From NCBI RefSeq assembly GCF_900172345.1, contig NZ_FWFY01000001.1, positions 124,001 to 188,000 on the forward strand: a DNA stretch of 64,000 nt, in the 5' to 3' direction. The stretch comes from Limimaricola soesokkakensis (GTDB lineage Bacteria; Pseudomonadota; Alphaproteobacteria; Rhodobacterales; Rhodobacteraceae). A program made the translations under genes and the position numbers. Shown here piece after piece: positions 35,975-51,769 of this stretch. The notes beneath the pieces were generated by a model that was given only the letters and a program-made list of their open reading frames with translations, was not told the DNA's origin and made no database searches. How positions within the stretch are numbered: position 1 is the first letter of the stretch; every line of letters starts with the position of its first letter.

Positions 35975-36644
35975 ACCGATCCTGAAGCTCTCGGGGCTCA
36001 CCAAGACCTACAACAAGGGCAAGCCCTCGGAGGTGCAGGTGCTGCGCGGCGCGGATCTGGAAATCCGGCCCGGCGAGGTGGTGGCGCTGGTCGCGCCTTC
36101 GGGCGCGGGCAAGTCGACGCTGTTGCACATCGCGGGGCTTCTCGACACGCCCGATGCGGGCCATGTCGCCATCGGCGGGCAGGAGATGGCCAAGCTGTCG
36201 GATCGCCGCCGCACGCAGGTACGCCGCGCCGATGTCGGCTTCATCTACCAGTTCCACCACCTGCTGCCCGAGTTCTCAGCGCTGGAGAACATCACCCTGC
36301 CGCAGCTGGCCGCCGGCACGCCGCGCCGCGAGGCCGAGACCCGGGCGCGTGAGCTTCTGGAGCAGGTCGGCGTCGGCCCCCGCGCCGATCACCGTCCGGC
36401 GGCGCTGTCGGGGGGAGAGCAGCAGCGGGTGGCCTTCTGCCGCGCGCTCGCCAACGCGCCGCGGCTGCTGCTGGCTGACGAGCCCACTGGCAACCTGGAC
36501 CCCGACACGTCCGACCGGGTGTTCGATGCGCTGATGGCGCTGGTCCGGGGAACGGGACTTTCGGCGCTGATCGCGACGCACAATCTGGAGCTGGCCGCGC
36601 GGATGGATCGGGTGGTCCGGATGGATCACGGGGTGGTGGCGTAG
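35967..36644 (+). CDS. lolD: Lipoprotein-releasing ABC transporter ATPase LolD
   Basis: 225 residues. Walker [17 protein letters not shown]-loop [17 protein letters not shown] (the [10 protein letters not shown] pattern is typical of LolD), signature [14 protein letters not shown], Walker [14 protein letters not shown] and switch histidine ATHNLELA are all intact. It powers lipoprotein release with the preceding permease and overlaps it, so they form an operon. Confidence 0.95.
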
Positions 36645-36740
36645 CCTTATTTTGACATGGCATTCGGCTACAGAGCCAGCAACCTTGACGATAGCGTCGT
36701 CGATGGGTGATCTATTTCTGGAGGTAAATAGGAACTATCC

Positions 36741-37004
36741 ATGATCATAAATGACGATGCCTATCAGCGCGCCCAGCGGGCTATTGCTGACCTTAAATCC
36801 GCGGTCTGGTCAGTGCTTGTCAACGGTCCAACAGAGGGCCTTCGAAACTCTGATATCGGTCGCGCCTTGGGCATCTATTTCGGGCATGTCGAGCATCAGG
36901 GACACGTATCTCGTTCTGTGCTTGCTCTCATGCAGGCGGATGGGACCGTAAAGCAGGATCCGGCAACCAAGAGATGGCAGATCCGGTCCCATCCGGAGAG
37001 TTGA
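36741..37004 (+). CDS. Small winged-helix-like hypothetical protein
   Basis: 87 residues, MIINDDAYQRAQRAIADLKSA onward, with helix-rich first half and a possible winged-helix end (GLRNSDIGRALGIYFGHVEH, then ALMQADGTVKQDPATKRWQI). I do not recognise a named family. GGAGG and AGGA lie upstream, the latter six bases from the ATG. GC is lower than in the neighbours (33 of 60 bases in 36781-36840 are G or C). It sits alone between lolD and parE, pointing to acquisition. Confidence 0.7.
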   Translation: MIINDDAYQRAQRAIADLKSAVWSVLVNGPTEGLRNSDIGRALGIYFGHVEHQGHVSRSVLALMQADGTVKQDPATKRWQIRSHPES

Positions 37005-37007
37005 TCC

Positions 37008-38963
37008 CTAGACGTCCAGCTCTTCTACGAACCGCGCATTCTCTTGGATGTACTGGAACCGTAGCTCCGGCTTCTTGCCCATCAGCCGCTCCACGAGGTC
37101 GGCTGTCTCGCCCGGCTCCTCGTCGTTGATCGACACCCGGATCAGCTTGCGCGAGCCGGGGTCCATGGTCGTCTCCTTGAGGTCCTTGGCGTCCATCTCG
37201 CCCAGACCCTTGAAGCGCTGCACGTCGATCTTGCCTTTGCCGCCAAGGCCCTTCTGCATCATCCGCTCCTTCTCCGCGTCGTCGGCGACGTAGAGGCGCT
37301 TGGCCCCTTGGGTCAGCCGATAGAGGGGCGGACAGGCGAGATACAGGTGGCCGTGGTCGATCATCGGCCGCATCTGGCTGAAGAAGAAGGTCATCAGGAG
37401 CGCCGCGATATGCGCGCCGTCGACATCGGCGTCGGTCATGATGATGACCTTCTCATAGCGCAGATCGTCGACGTTGAACTTGGTGCCGAGGCCGACGCCC
37501 AGCGCTTGGGTCAGGTCGTTGATCTCCTGGTTCGAGCCAAGCTTCGAGGAGGCCGCGCCGAGCACGTTGAGGATCTTGCCCCGAAGCGGCAGCAGCGCCT
37601 GCGTCTTGCGGTCGCGGGCCATCTTGGCGGAGCCGCCCGCCGAGTCCCCCTCGACGATGAAGAGCTCGGTCCCCTCGCGCGCATTGGTCGAGCAGTCGAC
37701 CAGCTTGCCCGGCAGCCGCAGTTTCTTGGTCGCGGTCTTGCGGGCGGTCTCCTTTTCCTGCTTGCGCCGGAGCCGTTCCTCGGCGCGCAGCACAAGGAAG
37801 TCGAGGATCGCGCCCGCCGACTTGGTGTCCGAGGCGAGCCAGTTGTCGAAATGGTCGCGGACCGAGTTCTCGACGAGGCGCTGCGCCTCGGTGGTGGCGA
37901 GACGGTCCTTGGTCTGGCCCACGAATTCCGGCTCGCGGATGAAGCACGAGACAAGCGCGCAGCCGCCCGTGGTCAGGTCCTCGCGGGTAATCTGGCCGGC
38001 CTTCTTGTTGTTGACGAGCTCGCCATAGGCGCGGATGCCCTTGAGGATCGCGGCCCAGAAGCCGGACTCATGTGTGCCGCCCTCGGGGGTCGGCACGGTG
38101 TTGCAGTAGGACTGGGTGAAGCCGTCGCGCGACGGCGTCCAGTTCACCGCCCATTCGACCTTTCCGGGCACGTTGAATTTCTCGGAAAACTCGACCGTGC
38201 CTGCGAAGGGCTTGTCGGCATAGGTCGAGGACTTGCCCAGCGTTTCGGCGAGGTAGTCGGCGAGGCCGCCGGGGAAGTGGAAGCTGGCCTCGCGCGGGGT
38301 TTCGCCGTCGTCGATCTCGCTTTTCCAGCGGATCTCGACGCCGGAGAAGAGATAGGCCTTAGAGCGTACCATCTTCAGCAGCCGCGCCGGCTTGAAGCGG
38401 TGGTGGCCGAAGATCTCCTCGTCGGCGTGGAAGGTCACGGTGGTGCCGCGCCGGTTCGGGGCGGCGCCGATCTTGGCTACCGGCCCCTGCGGCACGCCGC
38501 GCGAGAAGCTCTGCTCGTAGAGCTCGCGGTTGCGCGCGACCTGCACGACCATGCTGTCGGACAGCGCGTTGACCACCGAGGCCCCGACGCCGTGCAGACC
38601 GCCGGAGGTCTGGTAGGCCTTGCCCGAGAACTTGCCGCCCGCGTGCAGCGTGCAGAGGATCACTTCCAGCGCCGATTTGCCCGGGAACTTGGGGTGCGGG
38701 TCGATCGGGATGCCGCGACCGTTGTCGCGGATGACGACGGAGTAGTCGGCCAGAAGCTCGACCTCGATCCGGTTGGCGTAGCCGGCGACGGCCTCGTCCA
38801 TGGAGTTGTCGAGCACCTCGGCCACGAGGTGGTGCAGCGCCCGTTCGTCGGTGCCGCCGATATACATGCCGGGCCGCTTGCGGACCGGCTCCAGCCCCTC
38901 GAGGACTTCGATGGAGGAGGCGTCGTAGGCGGGCTCGGCGCCGGAGAGGAGATCGTCGGGCAT
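37008..38963 (-). CDS. parE: DNA topoisomerase IV subunit B
   Basis: A 651-residue GHKL ATPase subunit of topoisomerase IV, which unlinks daughter chromosomes. ATP-binding patches are EVLDNSMDEAVAGY, IRDNGRGIPIDPHPKFPGKS and TSGGLHGVGASVVNALS; the TOPRIM region has FIVEGDSAGGSAK and MTDADVDGAHIAALLMTFFF. The length and the ParE-type RKRPGMYIGGTDERALHHL start fit ParE rather than GyrB. The ATG at 38963 was chosen over GTG at 38969. Confidence 0.95.
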   Translation of the reverse strand: MPDDLLSGAEPAYDASSIEVLEGLEPVRKRPGMYIGGTDERALHHLVAEVLDNSMDEAVAGYANRIEVELLADYSVVIRDNGRGIPIDPHPKFPGKSALEVILCTLHAGGKFSGKAYQTSGGLHGVGASVVNALSDSMVVQVARNRELYEQSFSRGVPQGPVAKIGAAPNRRGTTVTFHADEEIFGHHRFKPARLLKMVRSKAYLFSGVEIRWKSEIDDGETPREASFHFPGGLADYLAETLGKSSTYADKPFAGTVEFSEKFNVPGKVEWAVNWTPSRDGFTQSYCNTVPTPEGGTHESGFWAAILKGIRAYGELVNNKKAGQITREDLTTGGCALVSCFIREPEFVGQTKDRLATTEAQRLVENSVRDHFDNWLASDTKSAGAILDFLVLRAEERLRRKQEKETARKTATKKLRLPGKLVDCSTNAREGTELFIVEGDSAGGSAKMARDRKTQALLPLRGKILNVLGAASSKLGSNQEINDLTQALGVGLGTKFNVDDLRYEKVIIMTDADVDGAHIAALLMTFFFSQMRPMIDHGHLYLACPPLYRLTQGAKRLYVADDAEKERMMQKGLGGKGKIDVQRFKGLGEMDAKDLKETTMDPGSRKLIRVSINDEEPGETADLVERLMGKKPELRFQYIQENARFVEELDV

Positions 38964-49673: not shown

Positions 49674-50579
49674 ATGCCGCTGACGCCCGAGCAGAGCGCC
49701 GAGATCGAGGATCTTCGCGCCACCCCCCGACAGACGCTGCGCGCCGTTTCCGAAGGCGCCGAAAAGCATCTCTACAAGGCCCATCCGGTGCTCGACCACG
49801 GCTTCGTGCGGATGATCGACTACATGGGCGACGACGCCGCGATCTGCCAGGCCGCTAGGGTCAGCTACGGGCGCGGCACCAAGAGCGTGCAGAACGACGA
49901 GGGGCTGATCCGCTACCTGATGCGGCACTGGCACTCGACGCCGTTCGAGATGTGCGAGCTGAAGCTGCACGTGAAGCTGCCCGTTTTCGTCGCGCGCCAG
50001 TGGATCCGCCACCGCACCGCCAACGTCAACGAATACTCCGCCCGCTACTCGATCCTCGACCGGGAGTTCTACATTCCCCGCGCCGAAGACCTCGCCGCTC
50101 AGTCGGCGCAGAACAACCAGGGCCGGGGCGACGTGCTGGGCGAGGAGGAATCGGCCCGCGTGCTCGACTGGCTGCGCGAGGACGCGCACCGCGCCTATGA
50201 CCACTACGAGCAGATGATCTCGGACGACGGCCAGCAGGGCCTCGCGCGCGAGCTGGCGCGGATGAACCTGCCCGCCAACATCTACACGCAGTGGTACTGG
50301 AAGGTGGACCTGCACAACCTGTTCCACTTCCTGCGGCTCAGGGCCGACAGCCACGCGCAATACGAGATCCGGGTCTATGCGGATGCGATCTGCGAGATGG
50401 TCAGGGACTGGGTGCCCGCCGCCTACCGCGCCTTCGAGGAGTATCGCCTCGGAGGGGTGACGCTTTCAGCTTCAGGTGTAGAGTGCCTGCGTCGGATGCT
50501 CGCTGGGGAGGAGGTGACTCAGGAGACATCGGGGATGAGTGCGAGGGAATGGCGGGAGTTTAAGGGGGAGTGGCAGTAA
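49674..50579 (+). CDS. thyX: FAD-dependent thymidylate synthase
   Basis: 301 residues. The ThyX motif is [14 protein letters not shown] (Arg112 onward). It makes dTMP from dUMP using FAD and methylene-tetrahydrofolate, replacing ThyA. Other conserved stretches are LVFVARQ-like [29 protein letters not shown] and [20 protein letters not shown]. The last about 120 bases have codons ending in A or T more often than the rest, perhaps exchanged together with the AT-rich gene that starts directly after the stop codon. Confidence 0.95.
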
Positions 50580-51467
50580 ATGCTGTTACTATCTAAGCCG
50601 TTGGCCCAGGAATTGAAACGAGTATCCCAAAGTCTCCCGGACTTTGGCCGTAATATTGAGGCGCCTCATCTGCTCACCTACGATGACGTTTTGGAGGCGC
50701 ATTTCTGTATTGCTGACTACTTTATGGAGCAAGACTATGGAATTGGCGGGATTGGTCCGAAATCTGTTAATGGACTGGTATCTACTGTCGAGAGGCAGTG
50801 GATGGGATTTCAAGGCGTAACTGTTTACAAGAGTGAATACGAGCGGATAGCATCTTTGCTTTATGGGTTGATTAAGAATCATCCATTCCATGACGCAAAC
50901 AAGCGTACGGCGTTTCTTTGCGCGCTGCTTCAACTGCATAGGATGGGGCGTACCATAACAGTTGGGCAAAAGGATTTTGAAGATTTGATGGTGTCAATCG
51001 CCGACAACTCCATCAAGAGCAAGGCTGCAGTTAGAAAAATGGACAAGCAAGGCCATCCGCGTCCGGAGATAGCCTACCTTGGTAGATACTTGGAAAAAAA
51101 TTCTCGACGTTCTGCGCGACTGAGTAGGACAATCAAGTTTAGAGAGTTGAGGTACATCATAAGCAAGCACGGCTTTGACTTTGACAATCCATTTAAGGGT
51201 TCAATAGATATTGTTGTTAGGGAGGAAAAGACTGTTAGGGGATTCTTCCGCACAACGGTCGTAAAGAATAAGCGAAAAGTCGGCGCAATAGCTTATCATG
51301 GCGAAGGTGTTGATGTGCCTGACAACACACTGAAACACGTCAGGCAGATATGTGGGCTGACTGACCAAGATGGATTCGATGGTGAGGTTTTGCTCCGCGA
51401 TGCGCAGCCGACATTTCAACTCATCAACAGTTACCGAGAGGCTCTGCAGCGGTTGGCCTATCGCTAA
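50580..51467 (+). CDS. Doc/Fic-domain protein with C-terminal HicA-like region (novel single-gene toxin candidate)
   Basis: 295 residues. Residues about 30-140 form a death-on-curing (Doc/Fic) domain: YGIGGIGPKSVNGL resembles the Doc N-terminal helix pattern, and the catalytic motif is HPFHDANKR (His101-Arg109) followed by TAFLCALLQLHRMG. Doc and Fic enzymes phosphorylate or AMPylate proteins. Residues about 185-262 (KFRELRYIISKHGFDF, KGSIDIV, YHGEGVDVPDNTLKHVRQICGL) resemble HicA, but the HicA catalytic His position after GS is Ile. It is very AT-rich: 25 and 22 of 60 bases are G or C in 51121-51180 and 51181-51240. The start is immediately after the thyX stop, and the stop overlaps the cspA stop; no antitoxin gene fits. 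Confidence 0.75.
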   Translation: MLLLSKPLAQELKRVSQSLPDFGRNIEAPHLLTYDDVLEAHFCIADYFMEQDYGIGGIGPKSVNGLVSTVERQWMGFQGVTVYKSEYERIASLLYGLIKNHPFHDANKRTAFLCALLQLHRMGRTITVGQKDFEDLMVSIADNSIKSKAAVRKMDKQGHPRPEIAYLGRYLEKNSRRSARLSRTIKFRELRYIISKHGFDFDNPFKGSIDIVVREEKTVRGFFRTTVVKNKRKVGAIAYHGEGVDVPDNTLKHVRQICGLTDQDGFDGEVLLRDAQPTFQLINSYREALQRLAYR

Positions 51468-51670
51468 ACCTTCCGCAAATTCCCCGCCATCTCGCGCCCA
51501 TCCCGGCCCTCGATCAGCTCGAATTCCACCGGCTCGTCATCGGCGAGGCCGGTAAGGCCGGAGCGCTCGACCGCCGAGATGTGGACGAAGATGTCCTTGC
51601 CGCCATCCTCCGGCGCGATGAACCCATAACCCTTGGTGGTGTTGAACCATTTCACGGTGCCCTTCGGCAT
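51464..51670 (-). CDS. cspA: Cold-shock protein (CspA family)
   Basis: 68 residues. RNP motifs KGYGFIAPEDG and DIFVHISAV are intact in MPKGTVKWFNTTKGYGFI. It binds single-stranded RNA and DNA as a chaperone. The ATG at 51670 has GGGAG upstream; the in-frame ATG at 51721 would add an unneeded tail. The 3' end meets the Fic gene's 3' end with a four-base overlap. The 5' UTR spans about 100 bp up to the ArsC-like gene. Confidence 0.95.
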   Translation of the reverse strand: MPKGTVKWFNTTKGYGFIAPEDGGKDIFVHISAVERSGLTGLADDEPVEFELIEGRDGREMAGNLRKV

Positions 51671-51769
51671 GGCACTTACTCCCGTCACTTGAAGTCCGAC
51701 CGCACGCCTTGCGGTTGCCAAGGACAGTAGGTCGCGTGCAGGAAAGGCAAATCACAAGTGGAGGGAAAG

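Follow-up and report, generated by a model that had tools for sequence, protein, structure and literature searches.

A predicted Doc-HicA fusion protein encoded at a site of gene exchange behind thyX in Rhodobacteraceae

In the alphaproteobacterium Limimaricola soesokkakensis, the gene located directly behind thyX in a stretch of 64,000 nucleotides of contig NZ_FWFY01000001.1 (positions 124,001 to 188,000, hereafter the window) encodes a protein, called here Doc-HicA, whose two halves are predicted to adopt the folds of the toxins Doc and HicA. This gene, doc-hicA, occupies a hot spot where the core flanks are constant and the cargo is exchanged, and AT-rich genes are also found at a second site in the family, behind parE, the gene of topoisomerase IV subunit B. 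The explanation that we prefer, and to which we give nearly an even chance, is that Doc-HicA is a single-chain, one-gene anti-phage cassette, made of a Doc-type Fic phosphotransferase, a HicA-fold domain and a nearly invariant tail, and that it belongs to a large group of AT-rich cassettes, mostly of one gene each, which take each other's place behind thyX and parE. For this protein, we infer toxicity, EF-Tu as the target, inhibition by the tail, RNA sensing and a role in defence.

The fusion gene corresponds, in the list of open reading frames (ORFs) of the window, to positions 50580-51467 of the plus strand and encodes 295 amino acids (aa). It starts where thyX (49674-50579, plus strand) ends, the TAA stop codon of thyX occupying 50577-50579 and the ATG of the fusion gene beginning at 50580 without any spacer, and its 3' end overlaps by 4 nt the cold-shock gene csp (51464-51721, minus strand). 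The absence of a gap to thyX and the overlap with the csp stop codon are thus as stated in a preliminary description of this DNA, made from the sequence alone. The low GC content reported there also holds, at 0.470 (47%) in the fusion gene, compared with 0.655 in thyX and 0.668 in the whole window; the 60-base lines of the gene hold 21-32 G/C and, of the two values quoted, 22 is found at line 50820 whereas 25 does not occur in the line phase used. Along the 64 kb, GC falls below 0.58 at just two sites (500-nt windows, step 50), the fusion gene and the DNA directly downstream of parE. The genes thyX and csp were identified by family search; the names parE, tolA, tolB, uvrB and ABC-F come from reading the sequence.

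The N-terminal half carries a Fic/Doc domain. Indeed, Pfam matches residues 32-119 (50673-50936, plus strand) to the family Fic above the gathering score (E 2.6e-10), and the protein also matches the NCBIfam model DOC_P1 over its cut-off (E 8.3e-12) and PHROG 577, a Doc-like toxin (E 9e-17). The motif HPFHDANKR stands at residues 101-109 (50880-50906, plus strand), exactly where it had been located beforehand, and the pattern H-x-F-[HY]-[DN]-[AG]-N-K-R is kept in all 16 aligned members of the family that cover that region. The Doc-type Fic motif has a K where AMPylating Fic proteins have a G. In the AlphaFold2 model of the full-length protein, built with seven close homologues and of modest quality (mean pLDDT 66, pTM 0.48; about 72-86 for residues 191-260 and about 31-40 for residues 271-295), residues 30-177 superpose on Doc (3k33_A) with Z 9.4 and 3.5 A over 120 residues.

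The HicA-like pattern noted earlier at about residues 185-262 is weak by sequence and clear by predicted fold. The Pfam model HicA_toxin stays under its gathering score (E 0.11, 13.1 bits for a cut-off of 27) and reaches E<=1 in 3 of 17 aligned members; the match of this part to PHROG 353, annotated as 'toxin', is also weak (E 0.25), and when the C-terminal part was compared by sequence with proteins of solved structure, no HicA was returned, the best match being MtrB (E 0.018). As sequence searches gave at most weak HicA matches, the identification rests on fold comparison. In the full-length model, residues 181-268 superpose on 1whz (TTHA1913; structure title: hypothetical protein), which we take to be HicA-like, with Z 8.2 and 2.5 A over 70 of 70 residues, followed by 6g26, 4p78 and 5yrz. 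When residues 173-295 are modelled alone, pLDDT is 81-89 over most of the HicA part and the same chains come first (1whz, Z 7.6; 6g26, 6.4; 4p78, 6.0; 5yrz, 6.0), the next one being at 3.7. Although a Z below 8 is weak by itself, the HicA fold is accepted because four HicA-type chains agree, far above the next chain. The predicted domain (about residues 184-262; 51129-51365, plus strand) has the order alpha-beta-beta-beta-alpha and contains KGSIDIV, without the GSHH-type histidine, which is the active-site histidine of HicA. This histidine is found in 0 of 15 C-terminal sequences, the eight close members carrying G[ST]ID and the seven distant ones other letters without HH; H240 is invariant in the eight close members and aligned in one of the seven distant ones (L022). 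That a single chain joins the two folds, Doc and HicA, is supported by these predicted models, structure prediction being the check that the preliminary description had proposed and having recovered the two folds (Z 9.4 and Z 8.2).

The seven close homologues match the query from residues 1-295 to 16-295, with about 56-62% identity over the alignment, and come from Palleronia, Maritimibacter, Ruegeria, Gemmobacter, Pseudorhodobacter, Phaeovulum and a Rhodobacteraceae metagenome-assembled genome. Including the own genome, matches occur in 8 of 394 genomes of the family, 6 of 390 of the order, 3 of 385 of the class and 5 of 398 of the phylum, some of them to the Doc part only; at E<=1e-10, 8 of the 394 family genomes match, 5 of them along the length. 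Distant members keep the fused layout, with about 245-410 aa, and a common tail motif. All 28 pairs of the eight close members show a pN (nonsynonymous differences per site) of 0.19-0.32 and a saturated pS (its synonymous counterpart) of 0.81-1.0, which shows, as far as codon comparison goes, a fusion protein under purifying selection. Mean pN is 0.25 for the Doc part, 0.26 for the HicA part and 0.10 for the C-terminal tail (residues 263-295; 51366-51464, plus strand), pS being near 0.9 and saturated. This tail of about 33 residues, the most constrained segment of the protein and its putative built-in inhibitor, is predicted with low confidence to form two helices and, in distant members, mostly still reads GL[TS]...G.D...L..LA.

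The locations of these genes are diverse. Six of the eight close members lie directly behind thyX (the window, L002, L003, L006, L007 and L008) and the other two follow parE, at distances of 9 and 46 nt; among distant members, one follows an ABC-F gene (L012), one follows uvrB (L013), one lies between tolA and tolB (L017) and others lie elsewhere. The homologue between tolA and tolB (L017, 1462-2352) contains one in-frame stop. In the tree, a fork joins thyX-site and parE-site members without resolution, so that the number of moves between sites is not countable. Fused homologues therefore recur at varied loci, as the preliminary description had anticipated, and none of the outcomes that it had named as speaking against it (no HicA-like fold, loss of the catalytic Fic motif, homologues that are normal core genes) appeared. 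An origin from plasmids or phages was considered and rejected: tblastn matches were partial, mainly in the Doc region, and none of the 249 plasmid records and none of the 3 phage records reached 80% coverage. A scan of viral contigs gave one ordinary Doc.

Within the genus, the region between thyX and csp is a site of exchange. The thyX gene is present in 8 of 8 Limimaricola species searched. In the seven other species, similarity to the window ends at 50560-50567, i.e. 12-19 nt before the end of the thyX stop codon, and resumes in six of them at the csp stop codon, the fetched DNA of the seventh (L041) ending earlier; the 3' end of thyX and the csp stop codon are thus the left and right edges of the hot spot in the genus. 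Between these edges, each of the seven congeners carries a different AT-rich insert, encoding a glycosyltransferase-like protein (weak match), a DUF6338 protein, two small putative membrane proteins (by reading), a HicA-HicB-DUF6941 trio, a GmrSD_N protein or a DUF4145-like protein (weak match). No cassette is shared between any two of the eight species (blastp, 1e-8). As the thyX flanks are 87-95% identical in DNA sequence among congeners yet the cargo is different in all of them, the cargo turns over faster than its flanks. At its very end, over five to nine codons, thyX itself varies with the cargo.

The same organization extends to the family. Downstream DNA was available for 60 of the 121 family genomes that have thyX, chiefly those ranked highest by similarity, several contig-end loci being left out, and 56 of 61 thyX loci (own included) had enough sequence for a GC profile; the parE sample comprised the best-scoring loci, 30 of 71 genomes. 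Cassettes were called from a drop in GC, a rule that misses weakly AT-rich cassettes such as a GIY-YIG-like one in L082, scored as a non-carrier; the start codons of cassette ORFs are putative. Among 56 genera, AT-rich windows (200 nt, at least 0.08 below the local reference GC) lie 100 nt behind thyX in 25 and 500 nt behind it in 29, and from 1.5 kb onwards in 0-4 (n=56 or 54), the comparison of 25/56 with 2/56 at +1.9 kb giving p 2.8e-7; they are found in 4 of 51 inside thyX and in 1-5 of 28 upstream of it. Behind parE, they occur in 17-18 of 29 within the first 600 nt (p 2.6e-6); the counts are 0-1 of 30 within the gene itself and, more than 1 kb behind it, 1 of 28. In 25 of the 30 carriers at thyX and 15 of the 19 at parE, at most 45 nt separate the stop codon of the core gene from the edge of the first AT-rich ORF. 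The longest ORF is codirectional with thyX in 27 of 30 loci (21 of 24 without doc-hicA, p 2.8e-4) and with parE in 12 of 19, which is not significant.

Some cargo recurs at the thyX site from one genus to another, namely doc-hicA itself and the trio HicA-HicB-DUF6941, seen in L040 and L110 and likely also in L099. The HicA of the L040 and L110 trios has GSR[RK] where GSHH stands in GSHH-type HicA, and DUF6941 may be a new part of the HicA-HicB type of toxin-antitoxin system. At the parE site, three pairs of similar cassette proteins are found in different genera (L138/L140, L132/L136 and L142/L159). In L107, the DNA 39-1615 nt behind the thyX stop codon reads as a gene of C5-methyltransferase type with another AT-rich ORF after it, perhaps a restriction-modification pair. 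In the window, parE (37011-38957, minus strand) is followed by the sole other GC dip (36500-37010, with GC 0.53-0.56 over the first 400 nt), which may be what is left of a decayed cassette at this second hot spot; the 3' end of this parE is of the non-carrier type (GACGTC).

The edge of the cassettes bears a sequence signature, which was obtained by comparing carriers with non-carriers (26 with 23 at thyX, 17 with 11 at parE; intermediate loci left out, one genome per genus, kinship ignored). The parE genes of carriers mostly end with GTG GAG GAG TTG/CTG GAT GTT stop, and those of non-carriers more often with GTC GAA GAA CTG GAC GTG/GTC stop. The final codon has T as its third base in 15 of 17 carriers and 0 of 11 non-carriers (p 3.6e-6), the Asp codon has it in 17 of 17 and 4 of 11, and a G stands at -25 in 16 of 17 and 3 of 11, respectively. 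Third-position identity over the last ten parE codons reaches 0.72 among carriers, compared with 0.44 among non-carriers, other blocks differing by at most 0.10. The signature is included within about the last 25 nt, save weak scattered columns, five of which (-282 to -190) have p<0.01, as is likely given the 300 columns tested. At thyX, the signature is weaker (G at +19 in 20 of 26 carriers and 5 of 23 non-carriers, p 1.7e-4) and also includes scattered columns.

Two explanations of the site itself can be proposed. The first, which has an even chance of being right, is that turnover results from plain homologous recombination between conserved flanks, brought in by transformation, transduction or gene transfer agents, and that the parE signature is a ribosome-binding site. 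No recombinase family was found among the Pfam matches of 46 cassette proteins, the GAGGAG of the signature resembles a Shine-Dalgarno site, so that the cassette gene could use part of it as its ribosome-binding site, and PMC10250203 proposes flank recombination for the Pseudomonas hot spots. However, GATGTTT is also present in 7 of 7 parE loci whose longest cassette ORF is in minus orientation, where no ribosome-binding site is needed, and the signature is confined to the last nucleotides of the gene. Because these minus-strand loci carry GATGTTT, a 3' end that is attachment-like or borne by the element is possible. In the second explanation, which we consider unlikely, a system of single-gene cassettes that has not been described so far, with recombinase-free cassettes, would dock at the 3' ends of thyX and parE by recognizing their sequence, and Doc-HicA would be a self-contained antiviral cargo with its antitoxin in its own tail. 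The incoming gene would bring or require the last 20-30 nt of the host gene (...GTGGAGGAGTTGGATGTT-stop in parE, ...TGGCGGGAGTTT... in thyX), and the cassette would land at the stop codon and be expressed together with the housekeeping gene. Inverted repeats at the edges were looked for without a consistent result, and the idea was dropped: the 3' ends of thyX and csp look alike in the genus, yet few of the loci compared beat block-shuffled controls (0 of 100 shuffles for L042, 9 of 100 for the window locus, most others within chance). A search by eye for an integron-like core site gave no consistent match.

The cargo of the two sites includes recognizable defence genes. The 46 cassette proteins other than Doc-HicA match 20 Pfam models in all (E<=1e-3): AbiU2, HicA, HicB and DUF6941 twice each, and, once each, Mrr_cat, CAP12-PCTIR TIR, TIR_2, GmrSD_N, AbiJ_NTD4, DUF4062, FRG, NA-iREase1, MTES_1575 REase, DUF3800 and others. 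PADLOC (1e-4) was applied to single proteins from 20 of the 24 thyX-site and 10 of the 17 parE-site cassette loci without doc-hicA, and recognized 8 of the 20 at thyX (NsnA, PDC-S34, PDC-S35/TIR, PDC-S31, ThsB, PDC-S15, a weak PDC-M63B and PDC-S32). The proposal of a possible self-contained toxin or defence module, made in the preliminary description, gains weight on its defence side from a hot spot with such genes as alternative cargo, and is overall partly supported; the roles that it suggested for the HicA-like region (built-in control, RNA targeting or antitoxin) stay hypothetical, and the conserved tail does not figure in it.

No Phd- or HicB-like gene was recognized beside the fusion gene when the ORFs of both strands were read by eye, family search among the window neighbours being restricted to thyX and csp, and the sole PhdYeFM match of the genome lies on another contig. 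An adjoining phd or hicB partner was therefore rejected as a candidate, and the earlier claim that no antitoxin gene is adjacent agrees with this reading. Likewise, no antitoxin-like neighbour was recognized by eye at L002-L005 and L008, the contig of L005 ending 32 nt behind the gene.

These data can be assembled into a mechanism. Doc-HicA would be produced at a low and constant level from the thyX message, and its Doc part would be held off by its own C-terminal tail, as the C-terminal peptide of Phd does with Doc. The HicA-fold domain would sense infection, through phage RNA or an RNA-protein complex, and the released Doc part would then phosphorylate EF-Tu, as Doc does, and stop translation during infection. 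The tail is proposed as the inhibitor because no Phd was recognized adjoining the gene, because read-through from thyX would make the protein and because the tail is the most constrained segment. According to PMC9207808, EF-Tu loses its activity when Doc phosphorylates it, and a C-terminal peptide of Phd (residues 52-73), which forms two helices, suffices to inhibit Doc. The scheme of a sensor and an inhibitor follows from the analogy with CapRel, described in PMC10865869 as a toxin fused to a C-terminal part that inhibits it and senses phage.

Several observations weigh against this mechanism. The fusion family is rare (0.8-2% of the genomes searched). No docking of the tail can be read from the model, given a pLDDT of 31-40 for residues 271-295. 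Class III Fic proteins carry a [ST]xxxE[GN] motif in a C-terminal inhibitory helix, and this motif was not seen by eye in residues 263-295, where a different inhibitory helix may exist. In one distant member (L021), a 232-aa ORF lies 20 nt behind the gene, where a partner is possible. The absence of GSHH, with H240 aligned in one of seven distant members, implies that the HicA part may have another role. Finally, PADLOC recognized 0 of the 10 cargo proteins from parE, although at least one of each recurrent pair was included, and, as a control, 1 of 10 genes from the flanks (a UvrD-like helicase); as the difference between 8/20 at thyX and 1/10 in this control is not significant (p 0.20), a defence hot spot at thyX is just suggested.

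Other roles of the protein were weighed. Not every Fic protein is a toxin, and Doc-HicA may be a Fic enzyme with a regulatory role in normal cell physiology, where it would modify a host protein, its HicA-fold part binding RNA or the ribosome. Constant expression from a housekeeping message and the absence of the GSHH histidine fit such a role, but the very patchy spread (8 of 394 family genomes, 5 of them matching along the length), the AT-rich composition and an exchange site shared with defence genes make it unlikely. It is also rather improbable that the protein is an orphan Doc toxin whose antitoxin is encoded elsewhere in the genome, the HicA-fold part just adding target or RNA binding: type II toxins are normally paired with an antitoxin, according to PMC2701414, and the genome does hold one PhdYeFM gene, but this gene is on another contig, no antitoxin-like gene was recognized by eye beside the close homologues whose loci were read, and the use of several sites suggests that there is no constant partner. 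A functional partnership with ThyX in thymidylate supply, suggested by the adjacency of thyX in six of the eight close members, is ruled out for practical purposes by the varied neighbours of the homologues (parE for two close members; an ABC-F gene, uvrB or tolA and tolB for distant ones) and by the unrelated genes found behind thyX in the seven congeners.

If the preferred explanation, a single-chain anti-phage protein, is true, the fusion of a Doc kinase and a HicA fold without antitoxin would be a new architecture among single-chain toxin-antitoxin or abortive-infection proteins. The gene located behind thyX or parE in Rhodobacteraceae genomes would offer a cheap route to new defence genes, and the sites raise the question of how single genes are precisely exchanged behind core stop codons without a visible recombinase. 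Neither a Fic/Doc-HicA fusion nor a report of these sites as hot spots was found among the papers listed by searches of the open-licence literature, preprints being outside its scope.

Among known systems, the Doc of phage P1 phd-doc (3k33, 3dd7) shares with Doc-HicA the fold (Z 9.4) and the motif H-x-F-x-[DN]-[AG]-N-K-R, but Doc-HicA is twice as long, has a fused HicA fold and a tail, and has no adjoining phd recognized. PDC-S23, a candidate defence family of PADLOC, is matched by the Fic part alone (2e-12, residues 27-127) and differs in layout. The HicA toxins (TTHA1913, 1whz; HicA3, 4p78; Burkholderia pseudomallei HicA, 6g26) share the alpha-beta-beta-beta-alpha order over nearly the whole HicA chain, whereas Doc-HicA has a Pfam score below the cut-off, lacks GSHH, has no HicB recognized and carries this domain as a C-terminal fusion to Doc. 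The 2024 survey of Gerdes distinguishes 14 HicA domain contexts, four of them fused, and Fic and Doc have no occurrence in its main text (PMC10865869). Its class 13 has a helical N-terminal part and a C-terminal HicA in 340-440 aa. CapRel resembles Doc-HicA, by analogy, in combining a putative toxin and a putative sensor or inhibitor in one polypeptide, but toxin chemistry and folds differ. With regard to the sites, the core defence hot spots cDHS1 and cDHS2 of Pseudomonas aeruginosa, as described in PMC10250203, also display constant core flanks, exchanging cargo (defence genes there, putative ones in part here) and, often, no mobile gene. However, they have medians of 26 and 6 kb and lie beside tRNA or tmRNA genes, whereas the Rhodobacteraceae sites mostly hold one gene, of about 0.5-1.5 kb, after the stop codon of a protein gene and in many genera. 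Taken together, Doc-HicA is a variation on known systems, in a location that had not been noticed in the literature searched.
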